Virus record (IMG/VR): IMGVR_UViG_3300044712_000942
Span: 1 to 41,843 of that record
Reading direction: 5' to 3' (one strand)
Source of the DNA: a virus
DNA: 41,843 nucleotides
Shown: piece by piece, positions 8,166 to 37,666 of the stretch
Numbering within the stretch: the first letter of the stretch is position 1
Layout of the letters: the number at the start of each line of letters is the position of its first letter
Translations under genes and position numbers: made by a program
The notes under the pieces: model-generated
What the model saw: only the letters and a program-made list of their open reading frames with translations
What the model was told of the DNA's origin: nothing
Database searches by the model: none

Positions 8166-8199
8166 GCCGGAAGCTCTGTGCGGCCTCGGGCAAAGTCAA
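8166..8199 (-). promoter_or_regulatory. Late control module 1 (before tail fibre)
   Basis: Within the 58-bp gap before the tail-fibre gene, the - strand reads TTGAC (8199-8195), 12 bp, then the shared 17-bp word CGCACAGAGCTTCCGGC (8182-8166), which ends 24 bases before the ATG at 8141. The TTGAC directly follows the upstream stop codon. GCCG and CGGC around the core can pair into a short stem. The same arrangement recurs at three other late gaps. It may be a late promoter with a phage-specific -10 region or an RNA element. Confidence 0.7.
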
Positions 8200-10617
8200 T
8201 CATCGGACCGACTCGCTCGGGGGCAGCCAGAACGTCTGCGCGTTCTCGCGCTCGATCCGCTGCTCCATGCGGCGCAGCGTCCCGGGCGAAAGCGCCTCCT
8301 GCACCTGATAGAGGAACAGGTAGTTGAGCGCGATCCGGGTGTAGAACAGGTTCATGTACGGCGTGTTGTCGAGCGCCAGGCGCAGCGCGTCGCCGGCGTC
8401 GCGGTTGCCGCGCACGAGTCCCTGGCCGAGCTGCACGACGTCGGCCGCGGTGGACAGGGTCGGGCCGGCGAGCGTCTCGAGCGGGGTGCGGCCGAAGCGG
8501 GAGAAGTCGGCGAACAGGAAGTCGCCGTAAATGCCCGCACCGCCGCCCTGCAGCATCGCGGCCGTGATCGTCGAGGGCTCGGTTGGGTCGCGTGGCGTGC
8601 GGCCCTTCAGCAGGTCCTTCGTGACCTGCGCGCCGTAGCCGAGGACGGTCGTCGTGAGCATCAGCGACGCGAGCCCGCCGAGCGAGCCCTGGCCGAACGC
8701 CTTGTCGCCGTAGCCGTAGATCTCGCGCCCGATGACCTGCCGGGTGAAGGCGACCGGGTAGCCCTTGAACTGCGTCAGAAACCGCCAGAGCTCGCCGCTC
8801 GGCGTGCCCGGGCGAGTGCCCTGGCGCAGGAGCGCGCGGCTGTCGGCGTCGGGCTCGAGCACGGCCGTGTAGGCGCGGTCGTTGATGTAGCGGCGCAGCT
8901 GGTCGGCGCGGGCGGGATCGAGGCTGTCGGGCACGAGGAAGTCGGTGCCGTCCGCCGAGCGCTTCACGCCGGCGCTGCGCATGTGGTCCCAGTCGGCGGC
9001 CTTGATGTTGAAGAACCCGAACACGCGCTGCAGGTCGGGCGAGAGCTGGTCGAAGGCCTTGCCGGCGTTGAGCGCCAGGTGATGCGACATGCTGAGTGCC
9101 GCGGATCCGCGCAGCGAGTCAGTCCACCAGTTCAGCAGGTTCAGCTTGAAGAACATCTGCTGCGCCCGCCCGACGGCGCCCGGCATCGTCTCGTCGAGCG
9201 TGCCAGTGCGCGTGATGTCGCCGATGAGCGAATCGAAGAACACGCCGAGGCTCGACAGGATCTCCCGCCGCTCCCCAGCCGGCCGGCCCTGCACGAGCCC
9301 GCCGATCGCCTCGCCGATGCCGTTGAGGAAGCCGCGGCCCTGGAACCGCATCTCGCTCGCGAAGTTCGCGAGGTCGGTGACCGAGGAGATCACGGCGCCG
9401 CCGAGCTTCGCCATGCTCTGCAACGCCCGGACGGTGGCGGCCCGGCGCGCGAGGATCGAATCGACCGGGGCGTTGACGGCGCCGGTGACCTCGTCGAGCC
9501 GGTTCTTGAGCCAGCCCGAGCGGGCCTCGCCGAGCTTTTTCATGGCAGCGTCGTCGCCGGTGCGGCGCAGGCGCTTGATGGCACCGTCGGCCAGGCGTTC
9601 GAACATCGCCTCGGGGTTCGTCCCGAGCACGCGCATCACGCCCGTGTCCTGGGCGGCGCGCATGAGCCCGCGGAACGCAGCCTCGCGCAGGTTGCCGGCG
9701 CCGAACTCCGCGTTGTAGTCGAACCATGCGTCGGCGTCGCGGAAGTGCAGGACGCGCTCCTCGCTCATGCCCTTGGCGAGGTTGCGCGGGCCCTTGAAGC
9801 CGGAGGTGTTCGGTGCGGCGCGCGTCTTCGCGTGCATGCCGGTGGAGACGCCGGAGTAGACCTGCTGCAGCCAGCCGACCTTGTCGGCGATCGGGCCGCG
9901 CTCGAGCTCGATGCGCTGCCAGTCGAGGAGCGGCGCGACCTTCTGGATCCACGCCGCCTCGCCCGCCTGCGTGATGCGGTAGGCGTCGTGGCTCTGGCGC
10001 ACGACCCAGCCCTCGAGCTTGCCGATGAAGGCGCCCGCCTGGTTCGCGTGCATGCGGGCGAGCTCCTGCCACTTGTGCACGGCGCGGGCGATCTTCACCG
10101 CATCCGCCGGGAGGCTCGCGACGTTCGGCTGCTTGCTGTTCAGCTGCCACAGCGCGCGGGCGACGTCGCGATCGAGCACGCCGGTCTTGAAGAGGTCGCG
10201 GACGCCGGCTCGGGTGAGCTCCGTTTCGAGCCCGCCGAGGTAGTGGTCGCGCAGCCAGCGCTGCTCGGCGGACACCGACTGCCGGGCGCCCTTCCTGCCC
10301 TCGATCGAGCCAGTGAGGATCGCGCGCAGGCCTTCGGACTCGCGGCCCGCCCAGGTCGCGTCGAGGTACGTCGAGAGCGCCTGGTAGCGCAGGGCGTTGA
10401 TCGTGGCGTTGCGCTTGGCGATGAGCTTGGCGAGCTGGACCTGCTGCGCGTACTGGCGGCCCGCCTGGTGCACGGCCTGCGACGGGGAGACGCCTTGCTG
10501 CTGCAGCTGCTGCTGCAGGAGCGCGAGCTGCTGCTGGATCTGGGTGGCCTGCGCCTGGCTCACCTTGCCGGCCATGGCCGTGGTGACGCGGGTGACGCAG
10601 TTCGCGGGGGTGCTCAT
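8200..10617 (-). CDS. Internal virion / DNA-ejection protein (large)
   Basis: This 805-residue protein has a Gln-rich helical N-terminus (about 20-60) and a long helical body. The C-terminus has hydrophobic stretches (GGLASLMLTTTVLGYG) followed by NTPYMNLFYTRIALNYLF and FWLPPS, a signature I associate with the largest internal proteins of podoviruses (T7 gp16-like role). Such proteins are carried inside the head and form the channel through the host envelope during DNA entry. No transglycosylase motif was seen. It is encoded with a 4-base overlap after another ejection protein, and its stop abuts late control module 1. Confidence 0.75.
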   Translation of the reverse strand: MSTPANCVTRVTTAMAGKVSQAQATQIQQQLALLQQQLQQQGVSPSQAVHQAGRQYAQQVQLAKLIAKRNATINALRYQALSTYLDATWAGRESEGLRAILTGSIEGRKGARQSVSAEQRWLRDHYLGGLETELTRAGVRDLFKTGVLDRDVARALWQLNSKQPNVASLPADAVKIARAVHKWQELARMHANQAGAFIGKLEGWVVRQSHDAYRITQAGEAAWIQKVAPLLDWQRIELERGPIADKVGWLQQVYSGVSTGMHAKTRAAPNTSGFKGPRNLAKGMSEERVLHFRDADAWFDYNAEFGAGNLREAAFRGLMRAAQDTGVMRVLGTNPEAMFERLADGAIKRLRRTGDDAAMKKLGEARSGWLKNRLDEVTGAVNAPVDSILARRAATVRALQSMAKLGGAVISSVTDLANFASEMRFQGRGFLNGIGEAIGGLVQGRPAGERREILSSLGVFFDSLIGDITRTGTLDETMPGAVGRAQQMFFKLNLLNWWTDSLRGSAALSMSHHLALNAGKAFDQLSPDLQRVFGFFNIKAADWDHMRSAGVKRSADGTDFLVPDSLDPARADQLRRYINDRAYTAVLEPDADSRALLRQGTRPGTPSGELWRFLTQFKGYPVAFTRQVIGREIYGYGDKAFGQGSLGGLASLMLTTTVLGYGAQVTKDLLKGRTPRDPTEPSTITAAMLQGGGAGIYGDFLFADFSRFGRTPLETLAGPTLSTAADVVQLGQGLVRGNRDAGDALRLALDNTPYMNLFYTRIALNYLFLYQVQEALSPGTLRRMEQRIERENAQTFWLPPSESVR

Positions 10618-12428
10618 GCGATGGACCTCATGGCGCAGGCGGCGAGCATCCGCGCGGCTTCGGAGAACGCCTCGGACTCCTCGGCGAGTGCGTTGGCCTC
10701 GTCGAGCTCGGCGCGGATCTCCTCGGGGAGTTCGGCGTCGTCGAGCTTCATCTCGTCCTCGAGGTCCTTGAGCGTCGCCTCGAGGTCGGCGATCTGCTCC
10801 TCGACGGCCTTGGCTTCGGCAGCCTCGACGACCTCGACCGGCTCGGCCACGGGTTCCGGCTCACCGCGGCGCAGCTGCTCGACCGTTTCCTGCACCGGAC
10901 GCGTGCGGGTGGCCGGGTCGAGCTCGAACGCGGCCTCGACGTTGACGTCTTGGCCGGCCAGGTCCTGCGCGACGGCGCCATGCAGGGCGGCCTCGCGGGT
11001 CTGCGGGGAGGCGAGCGCAGCACGTCCGGCGGCGCTCTTCATCGCGGCACCCCGCCAATCGGCGGCGAGCTGGCGCAGCACGGTGGCCTGCTCGGTTTTC
11101 GCGGAGATCGCGTTGTCGAGCTTGCGCAGGTCGGCAGCTTTAGCCTCTGCGCGCGTGGCCGCGAGCGGCGAGTCCGGGTCGGCCGGTTCCGCGTCGCGGG
11201 CCGTTCGTTGCGCCTCGAGGTCGGCGCGTTCGGCGTCGAGTTGCTTGATGCGTGCCTCGAGCGAGCCCACGGCGTCGAGTGTGGAGGCCTCGAACAGCCG
11301 GTCGCGGGCGTTGAAGCCGAGCAGGTCGGCCTTCTCGTTGAGCGTCTCGGCGCGGTTCCAGCGCTTATCGAGCTTGTCCAGGTCTCGCTCTGCAGCTGCT
11401 GCGAGATCGTGGGCCTGCAGCGTGGCCTCGGTCTCCGCGATCGTCCGCTGCACGGCGAGCGCCTCCTCGGGCGAGAGCTCGTCGAGCTTCGCGGCCCGCG
11501 CTTCCTGCAGCCTGGCCTGTGCTTCGACACGTGCGGGCTCGTCGAGCCGTGCCGACGCCTGTTCGGTGAGTTTCGTCCGCCGCTCGAGGTAGAGCGCGTC
11601 GATCGTGGTTGCGGCCTGCTCGGTCGTGACTGGCCGCGGCAGCGGTCGCGCGGCCGGAGCGGTTGCGTCGACCGGCGCCTGTCGCTCGTCGAGTGCCTTC
11701 AGGCGCGCGAGCAGGTCGTTCAGCGGCTTCTCGCGCCTGGCCGTGCGGACGTCGACGACGGCCCCGCCCACCGCATGCAGGCCGCCACCGAACACGCCGC
11801 CGAACGCGATGTTCGCGAGCGAGTCGTACAGCCCGTAGTCGGCCTGCTCCGCCTGCTTGGAGGCGTAGACGAACGGCTCGACGAGCGCCTGGCCGACCGC
11901 ACCTTCAGCGGCACCGACCGCCGCGCGCGTTCCGGCACGCGCCAGCGCGCCCGTCCCGGCACGCTCCAGGAGCGACGCATAGCGCGATGACGAGACGACC
12001 GGCACGAACGCCGTGGCGACGGTCAGGGGATCGAGGAGCGACGTGCCAAGCGACAGCAGGAGCCGCTCCGAGCCCTGCGCGAAGCCACCCTCGGCACGCT
12101 CGAGCACGTAGCGGCGGCGCAGCTCCGCCTCCTTGCGCTCGGCGAGGATGGACAGCTCGAGCTTGTTGTAGGGCCGGTCTTCGACGGTGAGGTGCTCGGT
12201 GAGCCCGCGCGACTCAATCCAGCCGCGGGCGTCGTCCGGGGACATGTCGCCGAAGGCCATGCCACCCCAGCGGCGAGCCTCGTCGAGCTGGCCCCAGCGG
12301 TAGAGCGCGGGTCCGACGAGCGTGCCGAAGGTTTCCTCGACGACTGCACGCCGCCTCGCGTCCCCGGTGGGGGCGAGGTCGTCCTGGGTGAGCGGGTCGC
12401 TGAAGAGCCCCTCGGTGTAGACGCCCAT
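10614..12428 (-). CDS. Internal virion protein, coiled coil plus hydrophobic segments
   Basis: In this 604-residue protein, residues about 125-245 contain several Ala/Gly-rich hydrophobic stretches (LLLSLGTSLLDPLTVATAF, IAFGGVFGGGLHAVGG) that could insert in membranes. Residues about 260-450 are strongly coiled-coil, rich in Ala, Arg, Glu and Leu. The C-terminus is very acidic. Its position between two other large internal proteins and its build fit an ejection protein of the T7 gp15/gp16 type. It overlaps the next gene by 4 bases. Family membership is not certain. Confidence 0.7.
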   Translation of the reverse strand: MGVYTEGLFSDPLTQDDLAPTGDARRRAVVEETFGTLVGPALYRWGQLDEARRWGGMAFGDMSPDDARGWIESRGLTEHLTVEDRPYNKLELSILAERKEAELRRRYVLERAEGGFAQGSERLLLSLGTSLLDPLTVATAFVPVVSSSRYASLLERAGTGALARAGTRAAVGAAEGAVGQALVEPFVYASKQAEQADYGLYDSLANIAFGGVFGGGLHAVGGAVVDVRTARREKPLNDLLARLKALDERQAPVDATAPAARPLPRPVTTEQAATTIDALYLERRTKLTEQASARLDEPARVEAQARLQEARAAKLDELSPEEALAVQRTIAETEATLQAHDLAAAAERDLDKLDKRWNRAETLNEKADLLGFNARDRLFEASTLDAVGSLEARIKQLDAERADLEAQRTARDAEPADPDSPLAATRAEAKAADLRKLDNAISAKTEQATVLRQLAADWRGAAMKSAAGRAALASPQTREAALHGAVAQDLAGQDVNVEAAFELDPATRTRPVQETVEQLRRGEPEPVAEPVEVVEAAEAKAVEEQIADLEATLKDLEDEMKLDDAELPEEIRAELDEANALAEESEAFSEAARMLAACAMRSIA

Positions 12429-14530
12429 CAGCGACGCTCGCGGATGTCTCGGATCGTGGCCGAGTCGCGCACGACGCCGGCCGGAGTGACACCCTTCTGC
12501 ACCAGCTCGCCCCAGGTGAGCTCGTAGCGGGCGCCGTCGGGCTTCGTGACGGCCGTTGCACCGCGGCGGGTGGGGACCATCAGCACGAGGCCGCTGCCCT
12601 CCTCGTTCGTGATCCAGTAGCCGCCCTGCTCGATCGCCGCCTTGAGCTCGGCCTGCGCGGACCGGTCGTTCGAGAACGACGAGGCGCGGATCGCGAGCGG
12701 GACGTTCGGCGCGAGGGCCTCTCGCTTCGCGGTCTCGGCACCGGCCAGGACGGCATCGGCGGGCTGAGATCGCGGGATGCGCACCGTGTCGCGGAACTCG
12801 TACTGGTCGGCGACGACGGCGGAGACGGCGGCCTCGGCAGCCTTGCGCGGCGACTCCCCGCGCGCGGCCATCGAGTAGGCCAGCGTGGTCGCGGCCTCGA
12901 AGTGCTCGCCGTAGACGCGCTCGAAGTCGACGCTGTCAGTGATCGTCTGCGCGAACGGCGCCATCGCCGAGCGCACGGCCTCGTCGACCATGGTCTTGTC
13001 GGCCTTCGGCAGCGCCTTGGAGAGCTGCTCCTTGCCGCCGGCGGCCAGCGCCGCGTCGAGCCGGGCGGCTTTCTCCGGCGCCATGCCCACCATCACGCGG
13101 GCGGTGCCGTCCATCTTCGGCGCAACCTCGCGCAGCAGCGCCGGGTATGCCCGGCCCCACTGTGCCGACAGGGCCTGCAGCTGCTGGGCGCGCTTCTCGG
13201 GCTGTTTCGGGTCGAACGCGAGCTGGGCGGCGATCGCGTCCGCCTGGCCGGCGGGGAGGATGGTCGTCACGGCGATGCCCGCGGCCTCCTGCGCGGCGCG
13301 GACCTTCGTGACGTAGGCCTGCACGTCAGCGGGCGCAGCGCCAGGGGCGAGCGCCGCCTCGTACAGCGTGCGCAGCTGCGGATCGCGCTGCACCAGCACG
13401 CCGGCCGGGTCTGCCTCGAACGCCTTGCGCTGCTGCTCGTAGAGGCCTGCCGCGGCCTGCATCGTCTGCGCCTGGTCGGCGGCGCCCTGCTGCTGCGTCG
13501 GGCGATAGCTCTCGATCATCGCCTTGCCCTCGGCCCGGGGCGCCATCACGGCAGCGTTCACGACGTCATAGACGCCGAAGAGCTGCGTCTTCTGGGAGTA
13601 GCGCTTGTTGCCCTCGGCGGCACCGTAGGCGGCGACGTAGGCCGAACGCGACGGCAGCTGCGCCGGCATGCCCGACGCCTTGAACGCGAACGCGTCGGCC
13701 TCGGCCTCGGCGAGCGACTGGCGGGCCTCGGCGGCACGTGCACGGGCTTCGGCCTCGCGCCGTCGCAGCTCGGCTTCGGCGGCCGACATGGCGCGGTCGC
13801 GGTCGTCGGCAGAGAGGCCCTCGATCACGCTCGAGCCGGACTTGCCGGGCGCCGAGCGCAGGGCCTTGAGCGTGCCGGCCGGGTCGCGCTGCACGAGCGT
13901 CTCGACGGCAGAGGCGGCGATCGACTCGCGCGTCTGGAACCACAGCTTGTCGCGCACTGGGCCCGGGAGCGCGGCCGCGGTGAGCGCGACCGACTGCTGC
14001 TCGAGCACCTGGTCGTAGAGGCGCGGGTCGGCGCGGACGGCGATGCGCTGCTGGTCGATCGACTGCGCATACAGCGTGCCGCGGTGCTCGATGCCGCGCT
14101 CGGCCTCCCAAGGCACCATCCGCGCGCCGAGCTGGCTGCGCAGCTGCGCGACCTCGGCGGTGAGGTAGGCCTTGCCCTCGGGCGTCTTCGCGGTCCCGAC
14201 GAGCTCCGAGCCGTACTTGTCGAACTCGCCGCCCATCCGGTCCCAGGTCCCGGTCGGGTCGCCCTCGGCGTTGACCTGCGTGTCCGTCGTGTACTGCGTC
14301 CAATGCGCCGACGCCTTGGTCATCGCCAGGTGCGCGGCGGTCATGTCGTCGGCGATCGCCTTGCGCGCGGCAACCTCCTCCGCGTAGCGCATCGAGCGCG
14401 ACATGCGGTCCGCGCCCGCGGCAATGGCGGCCCCGCCGCGGACGATGGCGTCTGCGCCGGTGTCCAGCGTGCGGACGTTGAGCGTGGCGCCCGGGGTGCT
14501 CTGCTGCTCGTAGGTGGGTATGCGCGGCAT
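12428..14530 (-). CDS. Internal virion protein (gp15-like position)
   Basis: This 700-residue, mostly helical protein is rich in Ala, Glu and Arg. The N-terminal region (about 1-200) has the PRIPTYEQQ start common to podovirus internal proteins. A dense coiled coil lies at about 245-285. The C-terminal 60 residues are beta-rich (GGYWITNEEGSGLVLMVP). It is the first of three large ejection proteins after the gp14-like gene, matching the T7 order gp14-gp15-gp16. Function as part of the DNA-ejection apparatus is inferred from order and composition. Confidence 0.7.
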   Translation of the reverse strand: MPRIPTYEQQSTPGATLNVRTLDTGADAIVRGGAAIAAGADRMSRSMRYAEEVAARKAIADDMTAAHLAMTKASAHWTQYTTDTQVNAEGDPTGTWDRMGGEFDKYGSELVGTAKTPEGKAYLTAEVAQLRSQLGARMVPWEAERGIEHRGTLYAQSIDQQRIAVRADPRLYDQVLEQQSVALTAAALPGPVRDKLWFQTRESIAASAVETLVQRDPAGTLKALRSAPGKSGSSVIEGLSADDRDRAMSAAEAELRRREAEARARAAEARQSLAEAEADAFAFKASGMPAQLPSRSAYVAAYGAAEGNKRYSQKTQLFGVYDVVNAAVMAPRAEGKAMIESYRPTQQQGAADQAQTMQAAAGLYEQQRKAFEADPAGVLVQRDPQLRTLYEAALAPGAAPADVQAYVTKVRAAQEAAGIAVTTILPAGQADAIAAQLAFDPKQPEKRAQQLQALSAQWGRAYPALLREVAPKMDGTARVMVGMAPEKAARLDAALAAGGKEQLSKALPKADKTMVDEAVRSAMAPFAQTITDSVDFERVYGEHFEAATTLAYSMAARGESPRKAAEAAVSAVVADQYEFRDTVRIPRSQPADAVLAGAETAKREALAPNVPLAIRASSFSNDRSAQAELKAAIEQGGYWITNEEGSGLVLMVPTRRGATAVTKPDGARYELTWGELVQKGVTPAGVVRDSATIRDIRERR

Positions 14531-14533
14531 GGT

Positions 14534-17608: not shown

Positions 17609-17611
17609 GGG

Positions 17612-19678
17612 TCAGATCCTCGACAGCAGCCAGCTATCGTCGGGGATCGGCGTCGGGGCGACCTCGATCGCATTCGCAGCCACGGCCTCGCGCACGGCGA
17701 GCTTGTAGTCCTCGCCCGCGGCCTGCTTCTTCGCCGCGCTCTGGGTGAGGTCCTCGGCAAGCTCGTAGGCCAAGCGCGAGGCGAAGGCCTGCACGAACGC
17801 CGCGTCGAACTGCGTCGCGTCAGTGACGCGCGCCTTGTAGCGGAGCTTCAGCGGCGCCGGCAGGTCGGTCAGGATCGCGCGGCCCTCGATCGAGTAGAGC
17901 TCCATGTCGAGCCCGGTGCGGTAGTCGCTGAGATCGACGCCCGGGGCGACGTCGCCGACCGAGAGGATCGACAGGCAGTCGGCCGGGATCTGGTAGGCGT
18001 AGGCGTAGCCGAACTCAGGCGAGACGGCGAGCGCCGGGAGCTGCGTGCGCTTGATCGTGAACCGCCACTTGCGCCGGCGCAGCTCGGCATCGCGCAGCAG
18101 GTCGTACACGGCCGCGACCGCGCGGGCCGCCTTGGTGTCGTCGCTGAAGGAAATGATCCGGGCTTCGCCGAGCTTCGTGAGGGCGAGGTTGGCGATCGCG
18201 ACGTCACTTAGGGCGCTTCCCCCGGCCTGACTTGGGGCCGGGTCCGGCGTAGGGTCCGGCGGTGTGACCGCGGTTGCGACGACCGTGATCGTGAAAGCGT
18301 TCGAGTCGACGGTGTTGCCGTCGGTGTCGGTGGCGCGGACCTGCAGCGACGCGTAGGTGCCGAGCGTGGTCGGCGTGCCGGAGATGACGCCGCTGCTCGG
18401 CGAGATGGTCACGCCCGGCGGCCACGCGCCGACCGTCGAGTAGGTGAGCGTCTGCCCGGTCGGGTCCTGGAACCGCGCCGCGACGTTGACCGGAGTCATC
18501 GCCGTGCTCTGCGTGATCGAACCCACAGAGATCGACGGGCCGAGGAACACCGGCTGCGAGTTGATGATCGCGGAGACGATGATCGAGAACGAGTTCGAAA
18601 CCGCCGTCAGGCCGTCCGTATCGGTCGCGCGAACGCTCAGTCCGTTGTAAGTGCCAGGGACCGTCGGCACGCCTTGGATGATGCCGCTCACGGCCGTGAC
18701 GGTGACGCCGGCGGGCCACGAGCCGACCGCGCTATAGGTCAGCGTCTGTCCGACCGGATCCGAGAATCGCGCCGAGATATTGATCGGCGAGATGGCGGCA
18801 TTCTGCGTCAGCGTCGGCACGCTGATCGTCGGGCCATTGAACACCGGGTCGCCGCTCGGCGCCGATGCGACGGTGATACTGATCGAGCCGGACGACGTCG
18901 CGTTCGTCACCGTCAACTGCCGACTGCCGGTCGGCGTGGCCGGGTTGACGATGAACGTGATCAGCGTGTCAGTCCACGACTGGATCGTCTGCGTGACGCC
19001 GCCGATCGTCAGCGTGCCCTGCGTTCCCGTGAAGTTGTTGCCGGCAACCGTCGCGCTGACTTGCCCGAGCAGAACAGTGTTGTCGCCGTCGACCGAGTCG
19101 ATGCTGACGACGGGGTTGACCGTGATGTCGACCGGGGCAGACCAGGTCTTATCAGTCTGGTCGAAGACGCGAACCGCGAACGTGTGCGAGAGCAGGATCT
19201 CGTCGAGCGTGAACGTGCCATCCGCGAGCATCGCGACGTTGGCCCCGTTGTCGGAGACGAGCTCGTACTCGAGCTGGTCGCCATCGGCAACACCCGGCGC
19301 GGCGTCCTCGTAGACCGAATACGCGCCGACCGGCCACGGCACATCCGCAACCAGGTACGCCTTGCCGGTGACCGGCTGAAGGGTCACGTTCTCCTGGTCG
19401 GTGCCGTTGGCGTTGGTGACCTCGAGCACGACCGCGCCGTAGGCGAAGATCGCCGTGTTGGCGGTGAACGTGATCGAAGTGTCGGCCCAGGTGACGCCGG
19501 TCGACTGAACCTGAGAGAGCGCGCCCTGCCGCAGGGTGATGGTCCCCGGCGTGCCCGTGAATTGCAGGCCGCTGATCGTGCAGGCCTGGCCGTGCTTTAG
19601 GGTGTTGGTGCCGTTGAGATTCGCAATGACCGGAGCACTGCTGGCCGGCGTCTCGAGGTTCGGCAGAAATACCAGCAT
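17612..19678 (-). CDS. Tail tubular protein A fused to Ig-like domains
   Basis: Residues about 491-688 of this 688-residue protein match podovirus tail tubular protein A (T7 gp11 role, the ring under the portal): DVAIANLALTKLGEARI, LLRDAELRRRKWRF, and a helical end with RLAYELAEDLTQSAAKK. Such proteins are usually only about 200 residues. Here some 490 residues precede that domain: two IPT/TIG-like beta domains (about 15-100 and 190-275) with a region between them, then two tandem putative Ig/cadherin-like repeats of about 95 residues (each with GQTLTYS, WP-GVT, GTP/GVPT-GTY and VRATDTDG). A Pro/Asp linker (PDPTPDPAPS) joins them. The frame is open throughout with no internal in-frame start near the junction, so this is a true fusion. 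Confidence 0.88.
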   Translation of the reverse strand: MLVFLPNLETPASSAPVIANLNGTNTLKHGQACTISGLQFTGTPGTITLRQGALSQVQSTGVTWADTSITFTANTAIFAYGAVVLEVTNANGTDQENVTLQPVTGKAYLVADVPWPVGAYSVYEDAAPGVADGDQLEYELVSDNGANVAMLADGTFTLDEILLSHTFAVRVFDQTDKTWSAPVDITVNPVVSIDSVDGDNTVLLGQVSATVAGNNFTGTQGTLTIGGVTQTIQSWTDTLITFIVNPATPTGSRQLTVTNATSSGSISITVASAPSGDPVFNGPTISVPTLTQNAAISPINISARFSDPVGQTLTYSAVGSWPAGVTVTAVSGIIQGVPTVPGTYNGLSVRATDTDGLTAVSNSFSIIVSAIINSQPVFLGPSISVGSITQSTAMTPVNVAARFQDPTGQTLTYSTVGAWPPGVTISPSSGVISGTPTTLGTYASLQVRATDTDGNTVDSNAFTITVVATAVTPPDPTPDPAPSQAGGSALSDVAIANLALTKLGEARIISFSDDTKAARAVAAVYDLLRDAELRRRKWRFTIKRTQLPALAVSPEFGYAYAYQIPADCLSILSVGDVAPGVDLSDYRTGLDMELYSIEGRAILTDLPAPLKLRYKARVTDATQFDAAFVQAFASRLAYELAEDLTQSAAKKQAAGEDYKLAVREAVAANAIEVAPTPIPDDSWLLSRI

Positions 19679-19699
19679 GGCAGCGCGCTCCGGCCGGGC

Positions 19700-20158: not shown

Positions 20159-20173
20159 GTTCGATTCCTCTGG

Positions 20174-24641: not shown

Positions 24642-24663
24642 CAGCAGCCTCCTGATGGACCGC

Positions 24664-24697
24664 GCCGGAAGCTCTGTGCGAGCCGGCGAAAATGCAA
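24664..24697 (-). promoter_or_regulatory. Late control module 2
   Basis: The 59-bp gap before the 757-residue virion gene holds, on the - strand, TTGCA (24697-24693), 12 bp, then CGCACAGAGCTTCCGGC (24680-24664), ending 22 bases before the GTG start. It is the only copy with TTGCA in place of TTGAC. CGCCGG and CCGGCG on either side form a 6-bp perfect inverted repeat with the conserved word in the loop. Confidence 0.7.
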
Positions 24698-24700
24698 GCG

Positions 24701-24820: not shown

Positions 24821-26067
24821 CAGGCGGTCCTCTTCCAGAAGTGGCAGACGATGAACGGCTGCAGCACGTTCAGCGCGGTGTGATCACTCGGCTGCGTGAC
24901 ACTGTGCGTCAGCGGCGCGCTTGGCCCCGCCGAGGTCACTGCGTTGTTCGTGACGCTATGCGCCACTGACGCCACACCGCCCGCCGGGTTCGCGGTCGTC
25001 GCCGTGATGCCCGTCGTGTTCGCCACGTTCGTCGCCGTGGTCGAGCCGGAAATCGTGCCGAGCGCCGTCTGCGTGGGCGTGCCACCCGAGCCGCCCGACG
25101 ACGTGTCTACCGTGCCGATGACTTGCGAGAAGTTGCCCGTCGCGCCCGTGCCGGTGGCCAGCGTGTGCGTGTGCGCGTTTTGCGTATGGTTGTGACCGGG
25201 GTCCGTCACCGTCACCGTATGGGTGTGGTTCAGGATGTCGGTATGGTTCGCGACCGCGACGTTCGACGTTACCGAGTGCGTGTGGCTCGCGTGATCGGCG
25301 ACCGCCGTGCCGGCGTGCGCGCTGATCGCCTTCGTCTTCGCGCCGCCTGTTTCCTCGGCGGTGTCGAAGTCGGTGTCGCCCGCGTCGTAACCGACCATGA
25401 CGCGGCCAGCGCCGAACGCTGACCAGGTGCCGTATCCGAGCTCGGTGGCCGGGTTCACGCCCGTGACGTTGATGTAGACCGCGCCCACCGGGAACGCCTG
25501 GCCGCCCGGCCCGCTCGGTGGCGTGGCCCAGGTCTGGTCGCCGCGCAGGAACGTCGTGCTGTTCGCCGTGCCGGAGCCGAGCCGCGCGGTGTCGATGGTC
25601 CCGCTGGCGATCGCGCTCGCCGCGTGAGTGTGCGACGCCGCCGCATAGGCCGCGTTGCCTTCGGTCGACGTCAGGTACTGCGGATGCGGATCGGCGAGCC
25701 CCTCGTGCGTTGAGACCGCCGAGGCCGCGGTCCCCGCCGGGTCATACGTTCCGCTGTGGTTGTGGCCGATAGGGCTGTAGACGCCCGCGTGATCATGCCC
25801 GGCGGCCGCGTAGGCTGCGTTCCCCTCGGTGGCGGTGAGATAGCCCGGGTGCGGGTCTGAGGCCGCCTCGTGCGTTGCCAGGAGGCCTGCGGCCGATCCT
25901 GCGGGGTCGTAGACGCCGGTGTGGTTGTGCGACGTCGAGGCCTTGCCGTCGAGCGCCGTCTGCAGCCCGGTAACGTCCGCGATGTCCGGCGCGGTGTGAT
26001 CCTCGGCCCAGTGCGTGGCCGTGACCTTGGCCGGCGCGACCGGGATCGTGGCGTGCCGGATCGGCAC
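24820..26067 (-). CDS. His-rich tail collar/fibre protein
   Basis: This 415-residue protein contains two or more diverged copies of a DPAG ... THEAASDPHP.YL ... EGNAAYAAA module (about 50-155). A collar-type domain follows (about 200-245: FPVGAVYINVTGVNPATELG, GRVMVGYD). The C-terminal half has at least eight HxH motifs (HTHSV, HTHTV, HNHTQ, HTHTL), as in phage fibre tips where HxH triplets coordinate iron along a trimeric needle. It ends NVLQPFIVCHFWKR, a common closing motif of this group. It uses a GTG start 3 bases after the upstream stop. A short tail fibre or receptor-binding tip is likely. Confidence 0.82.
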   Translation of the reverse strand: MPIRHATIPVAPAKVTATHWAEDHTAPDIADVTGLQTALDGKASTSHNHTGVYDPAGSAAGLLATHEAASDPHPGYLTATEGNAAYAAAGHDHAGVYSPIGHNHSGTYDPAGTAASAVSTHEGLADPHPQYLTSTEGNAAYAAASHTHAASAIASGTIDTARLGSGTANSTTFLRGDQTWATPPSGPGGQAFPVGAVYINVTGVNPATELGYGTWSAFGAGRVMVGYDAGDTDFDTAEETGGAKTKAISAHAGTAVADHASHTHSVTSNVAVANHTDILNHTHTVTVTDPGHNHTQNAHTHTLATGTGATGNFSQVIGTVDTSSGGSGGTPTQTALGTISGSTTATNVANTTGITATTANPAGGVASVAHSVTNNAVTSAGPSAPLTHSVTQPSDHTALNVLQPFIVCHFWKRTA

Positions 26068-26070
26068 GGG

Positions 26071-26529
26071 TTACGCCAGGCGGGCGCGCAGGTCCTGCAG
26101 GATCTTCTCGCGCTCTTCGCGGGCCACGGCGAGCGCAGCGTCCGCAGCGGCGAGCTCGCCGTTCTTGGCGGCCAGCGCCTCGCGGACCTGCTCGAGCTCG
26201 GCTTTTGCCACTTCGACCGCCGCAGCGGCCTCGGCCTGCACCGAGCGTGCGGTCTCTTCCGCCTCGGCCACGATCGCCGCGGCCTTCGTCTCGGCCTTCG
26301 ACATGACGTCGATCGCCGCGTTGTTCGCCGAGGCGACGTCGCCCTGGGCAACCGCGAGCTGCTCGTTGGCGGCCGCGATCTGCGAATCGAGGCTCGCCAG
26401 TTGGGCCTGCCGCTCGGCGACCGCCGTATCGAGGTTGCCGACCGTGTCGAGCGTCTGCAGCAGCGCTGCCGCCGCCTCGAAGTTCTTGAAGAACAGCCGC
26501 AGCTGGCTGGCGGCTTCGGAGGTGTTCAT
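26071..26529 (-). CDS. Coiled-coil virion-associated protein
   Basis: This 152-residue protein is almost entirely coiled coil (about 30-150), rich in Ala, Glu and Gln. The ATG at 26529 overlaps the upstream TGA (TGATG); a GTG one codon earlier is possible. It sits between small head-type proteins and the collar fibre. A trimeric stalk or assembly chaperone is plausible, but no family is recognised. Confidence 0.6.
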   Translation of the reverse strand: MNTSEAASQLRLFFKNFEAAAALLQTLDTVGNLDTAVAERQAQLASLDSQIAAANEQLAVAQGDVASANNAAIDVMSKAETKAAAIVAEAEETARSVQAEAAAAVEVAKAELEQVREALAAKNGELAAADAALAVAREEREKILQDLRARLA

Positions 26530-26882
26530 CACGGTTTCCTCATCGCCAGGTAGCAGGACAGCGACGTGGTGCCGTCGCCAGCGGTGACGCGCGGGCGCAC
26601 CAGCAGGCCGAGCTCGGTGACGGCCTCACCGCCGGCCGCGGTCTTGATGATGTCGTTGCCCTGGGCATCGGTGCAGGTCACCCAGGTCGTGCCGCCGTCG
26701 TTCGACCACTCGAGGCGGACAGAGCCCCCGGTGCCGAACGTGCCGAGGAACTGCACAGAGCGGTCGGCGTACTCGAGCCAGCTGATCGGCGTGCCGTCGT
26801 CGCCGTTGACGAGACCCGTCCAGACGGCAAGCGCGGAGCGCCCGTCGCCCTGCGGCGTGATCGTGACGTTGCGCGTCGTCAT
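26529..26882 (-). CDS. Small beta-rich virion protein
   Basis: This 117-residue protein has an Ig-like strand pattern (RSVQFLGTFGTGGSVRLEWSN, TTWVTCTDAQG). Its size and place after the capsid and decoration genes suggest a minor virion component. No catalytic features are present. It is followed immediately, with overlap, by the coiled-coil protein. Confidence 0.6.
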   Translation of the reverse strand: MTTRNVTITPQGDGRSALAVWTGLVNGDDGTPISWLEYADRSVQFLGTFGTGGSVRLEWSNDGGTTWVTCTDAQGNDIIKTAAGGEAVTELGLLVRPRVTAGDGTTSLSCYLAMRKP

Positions 26883-26896
26883 GGGTCAGGCCCTCG

Positions 26897-27091
26897 TCAG
26901 CTGATCGGCGTCTTTTCGGTGGCCTGCAGGTAGCGCAGGATCGCCTTGACGCCGTGGATCACGGCCAGGCGGTTCGTGTACACCGCGTCGCTGACGCGCA
27001 GCTCGATCGCCTCGCTCGAGGTCGACGCGCCTTCGGTGACTTGGTTGGGCAGGTGTTCGCCTGCCACGACGGAATAGAATCGGTCGGCCAT
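26897..27091 (-). CDS. Small hypothetical protein (64 aa)
   Basis: This 64-residue protein has the motif VVAGEHLPNQVTEGASTSSEAIELRV, given here in outline only. It resembles small phage proteins that follow capsid genes. It is separated from the upstream decoration gene by a 54-bp gap containing a strong stem-loop at 27109-27138. Function is unknown. Confidence 0.6.
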   Translation of the reverse strand: MADRFYSVVAGEHLPNQVTEGASTSSEAIELRVSDAVYTNRLAVIHGVKAILRYLQATEKTPIS

Positions 27092-27108
27092 GTGCGTGCT
27101 CCGTTAGC

Positions 27109-27138
27109 GGTGAGGACGGCCTTGCGACCGCCCTCACC
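27109..27138. other. Strong stem-loop without T-run
   Basis: GGTGAGG and CCTCACC arms (7 bp), extended by a CGG/CCG triplet after one mismatch, enclose an 8-base loop. The stem fills most of the gap between the decoration gene and the 64-residue gene. No run of T follows on either strand, so it is not a standard intrinsic terminator. It could slow polymerase or protect the 3' end of the capsid/decoration message and so tune expression downstream. Confidence 0.6.
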
Positions 27139-27145
27139 TGCTGCG

Positions 27146-27640
27146 TCAGATGACGTACTGGACTTCGAGCGTCATCGCGGCTGCGTTGGCGATCGTCGCC
27201 TGGCAGCTCACGACGATGTCGAGTTCGCCGCCCGGGTCGGCCGAGAGGCCCACGGCCTGCCACAGCGGCTGTACCCGCTTGGCTGCCGTGAACACCGCCG
27301 ACTCGTAGGTGACGTCGGTGCGCGCGACGGCGTTGACCGTCGAGACCGCCGAGGCGAAGAAGTCCGCATCGACGACCGCGCCGCCGTCCGCCGTCGAGCG
27401 GAAGACGCCGATGTCCACCGCCGAGGAGCCGCCCAGGGCGGCGCAGGCGAAGTAGACGCCGCGGACCAGGCAGTTCGACGGAACCGCGAGCATCCGGTAG
27501 GTGCTCGAGGTGTCGTCCGACGCGGCCGTGGTGACCGTGTCGAGCGCCGAGTGCAGCGGCGCGCCGTACAGGCGGGAGTTGGTGAGGGCCTTGGCATCGC
27601 GGTTCGTGATGCCCGAGGACTTGAGAGTGCTGGTGCCCAT
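27146..27640 (-). CDS. Probable head decoration protein
   Basis: This 164-residue beta-rich protein is encoded directly after the major capsid protein. It has strand segments such as CLVRGVYFACAALGG and TMTLEVQYVI-like ends with few charged residues, typical of small capsid-associated proteins. No enzyme motif is visible. Position suggests a decoration or capsid-stabilising role. Confidence 0.6.
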   Translation of the reverse strand: MGTSTLKSSGITNRDAKALTNSRLYGAPLHSALDTVTTAASDDTSSTYRMLAVPSNCLVRGVYFACAALGGSSAVDIGVFRSTADGGAVVDADFFASAVSTVNAVARTDVTYESAVFTAAKRVQPLWQAVGLSADPGGELDIVVSCQATIANAAAMTLEVQYVI

Positions 27641-27661
27641 GTGTGTTGCTCCTGCTCCGGA

Positions 27662-28567
27662 TTAGGCTTCGCGGCACCAGATGCGGATGACCTTGCCTTC
27701 CTCGATTCGGGTGGCCCCGAAGCTCTGGTAGGCGTAGATCTCCCACGGGTTGCCCTTGAGCTCCTCGGCCTGGCGGATGCGACGGACGTCGTCCTGCCAC
27801 ACGCCCAGGTGCATGCCGCTCTTGCACCACAGCGGGATCGCCCGCGAGGTGCCGGCCGCGTCGTCGGTGCCGTTGGCGAACAGGTTCGAGTGGCGGAACT
27901 GGATGCCGTTCCACGACATCAGCCGGCCCTTCGAGTCGATGTTCGCGCCCTTGAAGTTGCCGTCGATGACTTCGATGTCGTTGAGGAGCGCCGTGTTCTG
28001 CTTCGGGCCGAGGCCGCAGAACACTTCCTCCTCGTCGAGGTCGACGTCGTTCGAGAGCAGTAGCTCGATGCCCTTCTTCAGCTTGGCGACCGACAGGTTG
28101 CTCGTGGTGGCGCCGTAGCTCACGCCGACGACGTTCGTGTCGGTGGAGGTCGGGAACGTGGTGTTCGTCGTGCCGGTCTTGCCAGTGAGCGACGTGCCGA
28201 AGAACGCGCTGATGATCGTGCGGTCCTTGCGGCGGTTCATGGCGGCGACCGTGTTCTGCACGTAGGCAGAGTTCACGTCCGAGACCATCTTCAGCTTGTC
28301 GAACGTGTCGACCAGCTGCTGCAGGTCCCAGGATTCCGGCGTCACCCAGCGGCGGTCGACGTTCGCGTCGGTGCGCTGCTTGGGCTGGAACCGGCTGTTC
28401 ACCGGGTTCATCTCGACCTTGCCGACCTGGTCGACCGGCGAGGCCTGCTCGCCCGTGTGGCTGCCGACCATGACGGAGGCAGCGAATTTCGATTCCTTCT
28501 GCTGCAGGAGCAGCGCGACGTTGGAGCTGTACTGCTGGGAGTACAGGTTCAAGAGGTTTGCGGACAT
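27662..28567 (-). CDS. Major capsid protein
   Basis: This 301-residue protein is of the BPP-1 Bbp17 / Phage_capsid_2 type. It starts SANLLNLYSQQYSSNVALLL, has DRRWVTPESWD and FDKLKMVSDVNSAYVQ in the first half, and closes with GNPWEIYAYQSFGATRIEE. This family builds HK97-fold shells. The gene follows a scaffold-like gene and a 184-bp gap carrying late control module 3. A GGAG ribosome site lies 9 bases before the ATG. The unusually long leader may support high expression. Confidence 0.9.
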   Translation of the reverse strand: MSANLLNLYSQQYSSNVALLLQQKESKFAASVMVGSHTGEQASPVDQVGKVEMNPVNSRFQPKQRTDANVDRRWVTPESWDLQQLVDTFDKLKMVSDVNSAYVQNTVAAMNRRKDRTIISAFFGTSLTGKTGTTNTTFPTSTDTNVVGVSYGATTSNLSVAKLKKGIELLLSNDVDLDEEEVFCGLGPKQNTALLNDIEVIDGNFKGANIDSKGRLMSWNGIQFRHSNLFANGTDDAAGTSRAIPLWCKSGMHLGVWQDDVRRIRQAEELKGNPWEIYAYQSFGATRIEEGKVIRIWCREA

Positions 28568-28713
28568 AGCCGTGTTCTCCGTGAGACGTTGAGTTCCGTT
28601 TCTCGGATGGCTTGTCGGCTACTGCCGGGCCGAATCCTTGCGAGTCGTCGCTCGCCTCGAGCCCGTCTTTCCAGGCGGCCAGCAGGCCCGTGTGGGTTGT
28701 CTGCTCGAACGCG

Positions 28714-28748
28714 GCCGGAAGCTCTGTGCGCTCCGGCCGCGTTGTCAA
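28714..28748 (-). promoter_or_regulatory. Late control module 3 (before capsid gene)
   Basis: On the - strand TTGAC (28748-28744) is followed after 13 bp by CGCACAGAGCTTCCGGC (28730-28714). The flanks form a perfect 12-bp inverted repeat, AACGCGGCCGGA with TCCGGCCGCGTT, around a 12-base loop, the strongest hairpin of the four copies. Unlike the others it stands far (146 bp) from the start codon it precedes. The rest of the gap (28568-28713) shows no gene, only leader sequence and the capsid ribosome site. Confidence 0.7.
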
Positions 28749-28751
28749 GCG

Positions 28752-29594
28752 TCACGCAGCGCGAATGTTCATCCCCGCCACGATCGCCGCGTCGAGCTGG
28801 TCCTTGAGCGCACGCGCGGCCGAGTCGCCGGAGGTGTACTTCGCGACCCAGTCCTTGTCGGCGAGCAGCTGCTGCAGGCGCACCTGGGCGGCCGCCGGCG
28901 AGAGCTTCGAGGCGTCCGGGTTGCCGTTGCCGTCGACGAAGGTGTCCTCGCCGAGCTTCTTGCCGATCGACGCGAAGAGCTCGACCGTGCCCTTGAGCCC
29001 GAGCACCTCCTCGAGGCCCGCGAACTGCTGCTCGTTGACGCCGAGCGCGGCCGCGGCCCGCTTGCCGAGCTCGACGGTCGGGCCGAAGGCGTTGCCGAGC
29101 TCCGCCTTGAAGTCGGCGATCGCCTTCTCACTCGCAGCCTTCGACTGCGCCTCGTAGGCCTGCATCTGCTGCTGCTCGTAGGCGTTCACGAATTCAGCCA
29201 GGCCGGCAGCCTGCTTCGAGCTGAGGCCGAGCTCGTGCATCTTCGGGGCGATCGCCTTGGCGAAGGCGTCGTTCGCACCCTCGGGCACCGGCAGCTTGTA
29301 GTCGTCGGGCTTCTCGGGCCGGCCGAGCTTCGAATACACCTGGTTCCAGGCATCGGTGTCCCCGTCGTCTTTCGGCCAGACCACCGCGCGGCCGGCCTTG
29401 TCCGCGCCGAGCAGCTTCTCGAGGTTCTGGTAGCTGGTGATCGCCGCCTTCGGGTCGTTCCAGCCCTTCAGCTCGACGAAGCCCTTGATCTCGTCGCCTG
29501 CGTCCGCGCCGTACCAGGGCGCCTGCGTGTTGCCACCGGCACCGCCATCGGCACCGGGTTGCCCGCCAGCGGCGGACCCGTTCGGATCAGTCAT
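28752..29594 (-). CDS. Scaffolding protein
   Basis: This 280-residue acidic, helical protein sits directly upstream of the capsid gene. The N-terminus is Gly-rich and disordered (about 1-30). It then has GDEIKGFVELKGWNDPKAAI and DYKLPVPEGANDAFAKAIAP, a pattern typical of scaffolds in this phage group, and a coiled coil at about 135-170. The scaffold guides shell assembly and leaves before packaging. It overlaps the Bbp19-type gene by 8 bases. Confidence 0.8.
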   Translation of the reverse strand: MTDPNGSAAGGQPGADGGAGGNTQAPWYGADAGDEIKGFVELKGWNDPKAAITSYQNLEKLLGADKAGRAVVWPKDDGDTDAWNQVYSKLGRPEKPDDYKLPVPEGANDAFAKAIAPKMHELGLSSKQAAGLAEFVNAYEQQQMQAYEAQSKAASEKAIADFKAELGNAFGPTVELGKRAAAALGVNEQQFAGLEEVLGLKGTVELFASIGKKLGEDTFVDGNGNPDASKLSPAAAQVRLQQLLADKDWVAKYTSGDSAARALKDQLDAAIVAGMNIRAA

Positions 29595-29883
29595 CGGATG
29601 GTCCCTCTCTCAGGTTGGTCAGGAAGCGCTCGTCGAGGTGGAGGTTCTCGACGATGCGCAGGTAGACCTCCCGCCGGCCGTCGGCCCGCGCGGAGGCAAT
29701 CGGGTCCATCGCGCCGCGAATCTGCGAGTAGACGGCGGTGGAGCGGTGGGCGCGGCAGAAGCGCGCCAGGTCCTTGAGCACGATCTCGGCGTTCGGCGAC
29801 AGCTCGCCGCCCTCGCCCAGCATCAGCTGCTGCCAGGCGATCCGGCGCTTCAGCACCTTGCGCCGCAGCCAGTCTGGAATCAC
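29587..29883 (-). CDS. Bbp19-type protein
   Basis: This 98-residue protein matches the Bbp19 family: VLKRRIAWQQLMLGEGGELSP-type N-terminal helix region, LARFCRAHRST and GRREVYLRIVENLHLDE. The family lies between portal and scaffold genes in BPP-1-like and other podoviruses; its exact role is not known. The GTG start at 29883 overlaps the portal stop by 4 bases. Confidence 0.85.
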   Translation of the reverse strand: MIPDWLRRKVLKRRIAWQQLMLGEGGELSPNAEIVLKDLARFCRAHRSTAVYSQIRGAMDPIASARADGRREVYLRIVENLHLDERFLTNLREGPSDD

Positions 29884-31490
29884 GCGGCGCCCTGGACGAT
29901 GGAGGCGACGTCCTTGCCGGCCTTCGCGAGGCCCGGCGCCGCCTGCGCCATCGCCGCCGCCTGCTCGGCCTGCATGCGCTGCTCGCGGATCGCCTCGACC
30001 TCTTCAGGGTCGCGCATGAGCTTGGCGGCCATGCCGTTAATCTCGCCGAGCGTGCGCGAGGTCTCGTCCAGGTCGAAGTTGTCGAACACCTCGGGGTGCA
30101 GCGCCGACACCGGCACGAGCGCCTCGAACGTCCGCACGATCGCCACACCCTCTTCGGCCCGCTGCGCACGGGCGAGCGGCGACTCGTACTCGATCTTGTA
30201 CTCGCCGCCGGCCTCGAGCAGCTCGTCGGGCATCGGCGGGAGCCGGCCCGCGCGGGCCAGCAGGTCCAGCTCGCGCTCGACCATCGGGCCCAGGAACTCC
30301 GACATCTGCCGCCCGGCCAGGGGACCGAGCAGCATGCCCTTCTCCTGGGCGCGCTCGAGCACCTCGGTCGCCGTCATGCGCGGGTTGTCGACGAGGATCT
30401 GGAACAGCGTGATGAAGAACGCCTCGTTGATGGTCTGCTGCTTGGCCTGCATCATCTCGAGGCCGATGTCGAGCCGCGCCTTCGATTCGAGCGGCTGCAC
30501 GAGCTGCTCGCCATTGGGGCCGAGGCCGCCGTGGTTCATCGCACCAGGGCGCATGTCGAACGCCGAGAGCGCGCCGTCCTCGGTCAGCAGCAGCGGCGGA
30601 TCCACGGCCTTGTGCGCCGCCCGGATCACCGTCTTGTTCATCTCGTTGAGCATCTTCACGTCGGGCAGCACGAGCACGCCCGGGCCGCGCCCGTAGGTCT
30701 CGCCGGCCGAGGTGAGGTCGCGCATGATCGGCGCCGGGAACGAGTAGTAGCCGCCCTGCTGCACGATGACCTTCTCGGTCTCGCTGACGTAGGTCGACGC
30801 GTAGCGATGCTCGGGCAGCAGGCCCGGCATCTTCTTGCCGCCTGCCGGCTCGATCGAGTGCACGAACGCGAACGGCTGCTCCGGGTTCTTCGCCATCGCG
30901 TCGCGGATCTTCTGCGGGCAGCGATCGCCCCAGCGCATCACCGCCTGGCGCGCCGTGTACTCGAACTTGCGGTAGATCGTGTCGACCAGGCCGACGTGAT
31001 TCTCGGCGAAGTAGGTCTCGGCGAGCGGCAGCGCGCGGTAGCGCAGGCCGTAGCCCACCTCCTCGTCGATCAGCATGGAGGAATTCGCAAAGGCCGCGAG
31101 CTCGAGGTAGCAGCTGCCGACCTGGCCGGAGAAGTTCGAGGTCGGCGCGTACCGGGCGCGGAACAGCAGCCGGTTGACCTCCTCGAGGTACGTCGTGACC
31201 GACTTGAGCTTGCCGAGCTCGTCGTCCGCGGCCTTGAGCTTGTGCCACTGCTGCGTGCGCGGCGTGAGCATCGACTCGAGGATGGTCGCGAACTTGCGCA
31301 CGGCGAGCGCCGCCGTGGCGTCGAACATCTTCTCGGTCTGCGGCACGCCCGGCGTTTGCTTTGCGAGGAACTGCGCCGAGCCCGGCAGTGCCCGCTCGGC
31401 CACCTGTTGCCACAGCGTCTCGAAGTTCGCGCGGTTCGCCTGCAGCTGGCCGCAGCGACGCAGGATGTCTTGGGCGCGGGTGTCGGACAT
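29880..31490 (-). CDS. Portal (head-tail connector) protein
   Basis: This 536-residue protein is of the T7-type head-to-tail connector family. The N-terminal helices (RANFETLWQQVAERALP), MFDATAALAVRKFATILESM and LTPRTQQWHKL are characteristic. The wing and stem parts follow, and the C-terminal 60 residues are helical and Ala-rich. Twelve copies form the DNA channel at one capsid vertex and dock the terminase. The ATG overlaps the upstream gene's stop. Confidence 0.93.
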   Translation of the reverse strand: MSDTRAQDILRRCGQLQANRANFETLWQQVAERALPGSAQFLAKQTPGVPQTEKMFDATAALAVRKFATILESMLTPRTQQWHKLKAADDELGKLKSVTTYLEEVNRLLFRARYAPTSNFSGQVGSCYLELAAFANSSMLIDEEVGYGLRYRALPLAETYFAENHVGLVDTIYRKFEYTARQAVMRWGDRCPQKIRDAMAKNPEQPFAFVHSIEPAGGKKMPGLLPEHRYASTYVSETEKVIVQQGGYYSFPAPIMRDLTSAGETYGRGPGVLVLPDVKMLNEMNKTVIRAAHKAVDPPLLLTEDGALSAFDMRPGAMNHGGLGPNGEQLVQPLESKARLDIGLEMMQAKQQTINEAFFITLFQILVDNPRMTATEVLERAQEKGMLLGPLAGRQMSEFLGPMVERELDLLARAGRLPPMPDELLEAGGEYKIEYESPLARAQRAEEGVAIVRTFEALVPVSALHPEVFDNFDLDETSRTLGEINGMAAKLMRDPEEVEAIREQRMQAEQAAAMAQAAPGLAKAGKDVASIVQGAA

Positions 31491-31780
31491 CAGCCGCCGC
31501 CGAGGAGCTGGCCGGTCGCGCTGGGCTTGCCCTGCCGGAACTGGCGGAAGCCCTTGTCGCCGTCGCGCTTCTTCGGCTCCATCACGCCCTGGGCGCGGAG
31601 CTCGCGCAGGTAAGCCCGGGTCGGCAGGCCCCGCTTGTCCATCATCGAGGCGGCCTGGTTGCCGTAGTAGGGGCTGCGGTTGCGGCCGAGCTTGCTGTTC
31701 GCGCCCTCGCCGCCGTTGTGGCGCGGGCCGTCGGGCCCGATGCCGAACATGTTCTGACCCGTGCGGATGATGCCGCTCAT
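31490..31780 (-). CDS. Small Gly/Arg-rich hypothetical protein
   Basis: This 96-residue protein is largely disordered, rich in Gly, Arg and Asn. Position just before the portal suggests a minor virion or assembly component. A similar small gene precedes the portal in several podoviruses. No domain is recognised. Confidence 0.6.
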   Translation of the reverse strand: MSGIIRTGQNMFGIGPDGPRHNGGEGANSKLGRNRSPYYGNQAASMMDKRGLPTRAYLRELRAQGVMEPKKRDGDKGFRQFRQGKPSATGQLLGGG

Positions 31781-31781
31781 G

Positions 31782-31973
31782 TCAGCGTCCGAGCAGCGTC
31801 TTCGTCGCGGTCTGCACCGGGGTCGTGTCGCCGAGCCGGCCGGTCAGCATCGCCGCGGACGCGCCACGCCGGGCCCGCCGCTTGTCGAGCGCCTCGCGCG
31901 ATTCGGCGGCCTCGTCGACGGTGGGGACCTTCGGAGGCTTCGGGACTTTCGGACGCGAGAACATGCCGCCCAT
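31782..31973 (-). CDS. Small Pro/Lys-rich protein
   Basis: This 63-residue protein opens MGGMFSRPKVPKPPKVP and then has a charged helix (EAAESREALDKRRARRG). Short proteins with this PKVPKPP start are frequent near the portal genes of podoviruses and are probably minor virion proteins. It is the first gene after late control module 4 and leads the portal-scaffold block. Confidence 0.65.
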   Translation of the reverse strand: MGGMFSRPKVPKPPKVPTVDEAAESREALDKRRARRGASAAMLTGRLGDTTPVQTATKTLLGR

Positions 31974-31997
31974 GGGGAGCTCCGGCAGTGTGACGGC

Positions 31998-32031
31998 GCC
32001 GGAAGCTCTGTGCGGCGGTGCGCGGTGTCAA
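31998..32031 (-). promoter_or_regulatory. Late control module 4 (before portal block)
   Basis: The 59-bp gap after the large terminase gene contains, on the - strand, TTGAC (32031-32027), 12 bp, then CGCACAGAGCTTCCGGC (32014-31998), ending 24 bases before the ATG at 31973. CGCCG and CGGCG flank the core as a 5-bp stem. Spacing to the start codon matches modules 1 and 2 within 2 bases. Confidence 0.7.
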
Positions 32032-37594: not shown

Positions 37595-37600
37595 TCAATG

Positions 37601-37630: not shown

Positions 37631-37644
37631 CGGTATCCCGTAGG

Positions 37645-37659: not shown

Positions 37660-37666
37660 TGCCGAC

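Follow-up and report, generated by a model that had tools for sequence, protein, structure and literature searches.

Putative host-polymerase late promoters marked by a phage-specific invariant word in a temperate podovirus and its relatives

According to our analysis, the four identical 17-nucleotide words found in the late region of a temperate podovirus very likely form part of late promoters recognised by the host RNA polymerase; the portal block, the capsid, the 757-residue virion protein and the tail fibre would each have one, as separate late units. The window, that is, the whole stretch of DNA analysed, comprises the 41,843 nucleotides of IMG/VR record IMGVR_UViG_3300044712_000942 and probably corresponds to a complete genome, since a 126-bp direct repeat is present at both ends (1-126 and 41712-41837). 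Family searches revealed T7-like virion genes together with an integrase, an excisionase and a Cro/CI-type HTH protein. The promoter assignment draws on sequence and comparison, namely on position, geometry, homologous promoters in relatives and the failure to recognise any polymerase or sigma factor of phage origin; transcription itself, its start points and an activator reading the word are inferred.

The four-copy word and its promoter-like geometry

A preliminary description had reported four identical 17-bp copies of the word CGCACAGAGCTTCCGGC in the late region, and our scan found all of them free of mismatches on the - strand, at 8182-8166, 24680-24664, 28730-28714 and 32014-31998. It is the sole exact word of at least 14 nt with four copies in the window, and allowing up to 3 mismatches adds a single match, against a chance expectation of 0.41. 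All four copies lie on the coding strand in late gaps, 0-4 nt past a stop codon when the upstream TTGAC (once TTGCA) is included, as the same description had it; the terminase genes are devoid of a module. The features are listed below.

8166 to 8182, - strand: word copy of the tail fibre gene, with the -10 GAGCTT at 8176-8171
8194 to 8199, - strand: -35 TTGACT of the tail fibre module, 17 bp 5' of GAGCTT, abutting the stop codon of the virion gene at 8200-10617
24664 to 24680, - strand: word copy of the 757-residue virion protein, with the -10 GAGCTT at 24674-24669
24692 to 24697, - strand: -35 TTGCAT of the 757-residue module, 17 bp 5' of GAGCTT and 3 nt past the stop codon of a 39-residue ORF (24821-24701)
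28714 to 28730, - strand: word copy of the capsid leader and capsid gene, with the -10 GAGCTT at 28724-28719
28743 to 28748, - strand: -35 TTGACA of the capsid module, 18 bp 5' of GAGCTT
31998 to 32014, - strand: word copy of the portal block, with the -10 GAGCTT at 32008-32003
32026 to 32031, - strand: -35 TTGACA of the portal module, 17 bp 5' of GAGCTT, just past the terminase stop codon
34125 to 34147, - strand: strong intrinsic terminator candidate, with the early leftward genes on one side and the late region on the other
37601 to 37630, - strand: early promoter candidate TTGACC-18-TAAACT in the repressor region, with a canonical -10 and no word

The ORF preceding the 757-residue protein is thus the 39-residue one, the 415-residue gene not adjoining this gap directly, which corrects an earlier reading.

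Alignment of the four copies places TTGACT, TTGCAT, TTGACA and TTGACA at 17, 17, 18 and 17 bp, respectively, from GAGCTT, so that every site combines a TTGACA-like hexamer of the sigma-70 -35 type with a spacer of 16-18 bp. GAGCTT is the only xAxxxT hexamer within the word, and it replaces the AGAGCT proposed earlier as the -10, which is off by one base, since it is GAGCTT that fits a -35 of TTGACN with a 17-bp spacer. Along the 28 kb of the late coding strand TTG occurs 67 times and TTGAC 8 times, three of the latter at modules, and the probability of meeting TTG 16-18 bp from GAGCTT by chance at 4/4 sites is about 3e-9. Only A2 and T6 of GAGCTT agree with TATAAT (2/6 positions). Such a weak -10 marks the late modules specifically, because the early candidate of the same phage has a normal -10 and lacks the word.

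On this geometry, TTGAC would serve the holoenzyme as the -35 and GAGCTT, at a spacer of 17-18, as a weak xAxxxT -10. The transcript would begin about 7 nt beyond the -10, just past the word; three sites would then have leaders of about 22 nt with a Shine-Dalgarno sequence, and the capsid a structured leader RNA. Shine-Dalgarno sequences are indeed present downstream of the modules at those three sites, where the distance from the end of the word to the start codon is 24 nt (tail fibre), 22 nt (757-residue protein) and 24 nt (portal block), in agreement with the 22-24 bases given in the preliminary description; the capsid copy lies about 146 nt ahead of the capsid ATG.

Homologous modules in related phages

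Modules of the same kind were identified in R (IMGVR_UViG_3300013131_000122), the closest relative by the capsid (62% identical), in S (IMGVR_UViG_3300048597_000151, L261), the closest by terminase (56%) and phrog_684 (63%), and in Bordetella phage BPP-1 (NC_005357, L100), the model phage of diversity-generating retroelements. R holds three modules (TTGCAATCTGCGAATCGGTGCCAGACCCTC, TTGACATCTGCGAATCAGCACCAGACCCTC and TTGCATATCCACCCCCAGCCCCAGACCCTC) with the invariant word CCAGACCCTC, located after the terminase, before the capsid and before the tail fibre, in which TTGCAA, TTGACA and TTGCAT stand 17 bp from the -10 GACCCT. The four late-gap modules of S share TTGCACACTCGGC, followed 9 bp on by TACCGT, CACCCT, CATCTT and CACCCT, and the four of BPP-1 share GGGTGCCCGTGCC (- strand, about 26295, 24133, 20748 and 6186), followed exactly 15 bp on by AAAACT, TACTGT, TAGAGT and TAGCCT. 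Pattern hunting contributed to finding the modules of S and BPP-1, and their -10 hexamers were picked post hoc, but a scan over 26 offsets is still a fair comparison, and in it xAxxxT is present in 4/4 modules at offset 9 in S and at offset 15 in BPP-1, against at most 1/4 at the other offsets (null < 5e-5 for each phage).

In six of the eight modules of S and BPP-1 an ATG lies 6-8 nt past the -10 (6-7 nt in three of the four of BPP-1), fitting the annotated starts of bbp24 and bbp19, and leaderless mRNAs are predicted in both phages on account of this short distance. In the first module of R, 7 nt separate the -10 from the start codon. Start codons at such distances in R, S and BPP-1 would fit, as indirect support, a transcription start 6-9 nt past the -10. 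The start of terS (bbp26) of BPP-1 is probably the ATG at 26255 rather than 26318. As in the window, a repeated invariant word and an xAxxxT -10 occupy late gaps of BPP-1 next to homologous virion genes, namely the gap following the terminase and those ahead of the capsid block and the tail fibre. Unlike in the window, the BPP-1 word takes the place of the -35 and leaves the -10 uncovered, terS has a further, fourth copy ahead of it, and three of the four mRNAs are predicted to be leaderless or nearly so. Neither the NC_005357 record nor the literature searched, Liu et al. 2004 being outside that search, was found to annotate or describe these repeats, and a literature search on late promoters of BPP-1-type phages returned nothing relevant. 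BcepC6B (L047) carries a near-identical pair of words, AACGCACTATCCTGCG / AACGCACGATTCTGCG, one in the gap after the terminase and one in that before the fibre, with a third close copy inside gp07 (positions 2773, 18980 and 5544); it is not counted among the module-bearing phages, since its -10 assignment is ambiguous.

The invariant part of the promoter extends from about -18 to -2 in the window, lies around the -10 in R, and spans about -35 to -22 in S and about -40 to -28 in BPP-1, a shift that would be odd for one conserved activator. That each phage has its own invariant box suggests a fast-changing, phage-specific control system.

The letters of the word are confined to the window phage. 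An exact scan of IMG/VR gave one match, which is unrelated; the same scan of 85k bacterial and archaeal genomes gave 35, approximately what chance predicts for a 17-mer in 257 Gb and none with the surrounding module; and isolated stray matches were all that appeared at up to 3 mismatches in 40 related phage records. A search for the word in relatives had been put forward as a means of refuting the earlier proposal. Its letters indeed are not conserved, but promoter position and geometry are, in R, S and BPP-1, so that conservation of the word is the wrong test.

Sigma-70-like pairs (at least 9/12) were detected in 17 of the 48 capsid gaps of IMG/VR relatives, against 2.8 expected. In several of these gaps a perfect TTGACA, often as TTGACA-17-TAnnnT, lies 5' of the leader RNA at a distance of 150-230 nt from the capsid ATG. 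In the tail-fibre gaps of distant relatives, such pairs number 3 of 19 against 1.2 expected, which is not a significant enrichment. The capsid -35 of R follows the end of an intrinsic terminator at a distance of a few nucleotides, and the order is the same in L058 and L059, as expected if the capsid constitutes its own transcription unit.

Control of the putative late promoters

The proposal of phage-specific late promoters, possibly in need of an activator, has fared differently in its two parts: the promoters are strongly supported by the homologous modules in R, S and BPP-1 and by the capsid promoters of distant relatives, but a candidate activator was not found and this part stays conjectural. 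Profile searches returned no sigma factor (Sigma70_r2 included), and no match to the Ogr_Delta and Mor families (PF04606, PF08765) was obtained in the window, R or S. Nor did blastp among the five phages find a shared non-structural regulator, the proteins in common being structural proteins, TerS, replication genes (BPP-1 and BcepC6B) and a pair of CI-like repressors (window and S).

We consider the chances about even that the invariant word is read by a phage-encoded late activator, which would co-evolve with the word and keep its copies identical. This activator is proposed on three features, namely the identity of the words within a phage, their difference between phages and the weak -10; conversely, a co-evolving activator would account for both the poor -10 and the possession by each phage of its own word. 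Alternatively, as a sub-case of the promoter reading, the modules may be plain constitutive sigma-70 promoters and the words recent duplications or gene-conversion copies with no dedicated factor. We regard this as possible though doubtful: the failure to find an activator and the plain sigma-70-type capsid promoters of distant relatives speak for it, but a weak -10 is kept identical in four copies whose flanks differ, three other phages each independently hold a word of their own identical, and a temperate phage should not express its late genes constitutively.

Late promoters serving several units are already known in phages. In Mu, the C-dependent late promoters (lys, I, P and mom) have non-consensus elements and are used by host RNA polymerase with one phage activator, whose site is at or upstream of the -35 (PMC4461284). 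The window resembles Mu in having several late units, each with its own host-polymerase promoter of non-consensus elements, and differs in that the Mu activator and its site are known, whereas the box of the window covers the -10 and no C/Mor protein was found. In P2 and 186, the small activator Ogr/Delta and host RNA polymerase switch on several late units together, with the box of P2 at about -55. The window shares with them the multiple late units, but its invariant word is at the -10 and no Ogr_Delta protein is matched. What appears new in the sequences compared here is that the invariant box is specific to the phage and that related phages differ both in its letters and in its place in the promoter. 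In the literature searched, the switching on of late genes without a phage polymerase in temperate T7-like podoviruses, BPP-1 included, appears undescribed. Through the comparison, what was a repeat in one phage becomes a promoter map open to testing in four phages, among them the laboratory phage BPP-1, and an evolutionary question arises, that is, how dispersed regulatory sites change together.

RNA structure at the capsid and remaining alternatives

The words might instead be RNA elements (processing sites, pausing sites or stability hairpins) within one long late transcript, which we judge improbable. In its favour, the capsid copy is embedded in a perfect inverted repeat of 12 bp:

28708 to 28743, - strand: perfect inverted repeat with 12-bp arms, AACGCGGCCGGA/TCCGGCCGCGTT, enclosing most of the capsid -10 in its loop and lacking a T-tract

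This stem is unusual compared with random late-region flanks (P = 0.0005), and the folding z-scores of the four copies (-1.5, +0.4, -7.4 and -1.7) single out the capsid one, the other three folding like shuffles. The flanks of all copies had been said to allow pairing always, with stems of 12, 6, 5 and 4 bp. Stems do exist (12, 6, 5 and 4-5 bp), but their positions are not shared among copies and, apart from the 12-bp one, they are at chance level; given that a stem of at least 4 bp arises in 90% of trials with random late-region flanks (P = 0.64 for all four), the observation carries no weight. Folding and the random-flank test found no secondary structure common to the four copies, and Rfam gave zero matches in the window, the capsid gap and 12 relatives. 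A processing or pausing site as a common feature, as suggested earlier, is hence unsupported by the z-scores and the unshared stem positions, and it would leave the fixed 17-bp distance to TTGAC unexplained.

Within the promoter reading, the capsid hairpin has a counterpart in BPP-1. The tail-fibre module of that phage, read directly from the sequence, has the form CCCCTGGGGAAG-TAGCCTTGCGATG-CTTCCCCAGGGG-TTTTT (about 6183-6125, - strand), a terminator hairpin with a perfect 12-bp stem and the -10 in its loop, of which the window hairpin (28743-28708) is possibly an analogue. With a promoter nested in this manner, transcripts derived from upstream would form the hairpin and those starting inside it could not, and the unit would be insulated; for the capsid copy of the window, which lacks the T-tract, insulation is put forward as a suggestion. 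A broader and quite tentative generalisation is that BPP-1-type temperate podoviruses may have several homologous late promoters for host RNA polymerase, with a box that changes in all copies together between phages (concerted evolution, with an activator of a new class), often leaderless virion mRNAs, and a promoter nested in the loop of a 12-bp insulating hairpin at the capsid (window) or the tail fibre (BPP-1).

Downstream of the capsid module, a conserved RNA structure was recognised by covariation:

28568 to 28690, - strand: structured capsid leader RNA (model R1), which reaches from about 28 nt past the -10 to the capsid ATG

The alignment of 24 sequences supports a four-helix structure with compensatory changes in 14 of 21 pairs and a covariation of 0.346, against 0.182 for shuffles and 0.08-0.16 for slid controls. 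The helices are a hairpin with a GAAAGA loop, a variable hairpin, a GGCCCnG...CGGACAAGCC hairpin and a final helix over the Shine-Dalgarno region of the capsid gene, with which a CCCUUCG segment pairs. The covariance model also finds the RNA just 5' of the capsid gene in records outside its training set (L054, 71 bits; L253, 69 bits; S, 28 bits), and the RNA adjoins the capsid genes of L050, L051, L054, many of L182-L259, L046 and L261. It has no match in Rfam and is a candidate cis-regulator of the translation of the major capsid protein. Since an RNA that requires transcription begins about 28 nt past the -10, it supports the promoter reading. Pelagibacter phage HTVC010P (L098) has a weak match to it (E 0.01) at its capsid gene.

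It is likewise improbable that the words are operators at which a phage repressor silences the late promoters in the lysogen, in the manner of stoperators. The phage is temperate (the integrase, the excisionase and the Cro/CI-type HTH protein, at 37580-38113) and the word differs from one phage to the next, as would be expected of repressor operators, but no copy occurs at up to 3 mismatches in the repressor region of the window or at up to 2 mismatches in the cI-cro interval of BPP-1, and the words are not palindromic and stand without exception in the late region. Linker sequences at module joints, promoting recombination between phages, would suit copies located on the borders of gene blocks and are nonetheless a very unlikely explanation, given that exchanging phages should share a word that is in fact unique to the window phage, and that the fixed distance to TTG would go unexplained.

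In Autographiviridae, identical phage-specific words recur throughout the late region as T7-type promoters. Promoters of a T7-like single-subunit polymerase, which the identical late-gap words and T7-like virion genes of the window might evoke, are the least credible of the readings considered, as PF00940 has no match in the window, R, S, BPP-1 or BcepC6B (T7, as positive control, 1e-109) and the spacing of the TTGAC -35 and xAxxxT -10 is that of the bacterial holoenzyme. As a separate observation on repeats in this set of records, L178 contains three near-identical repeats of more than 100 bp at 18022, 18999 and 19886, spaced by about 0.9 kb near the end of the locus, which contain CATGGGTGTGCCC.
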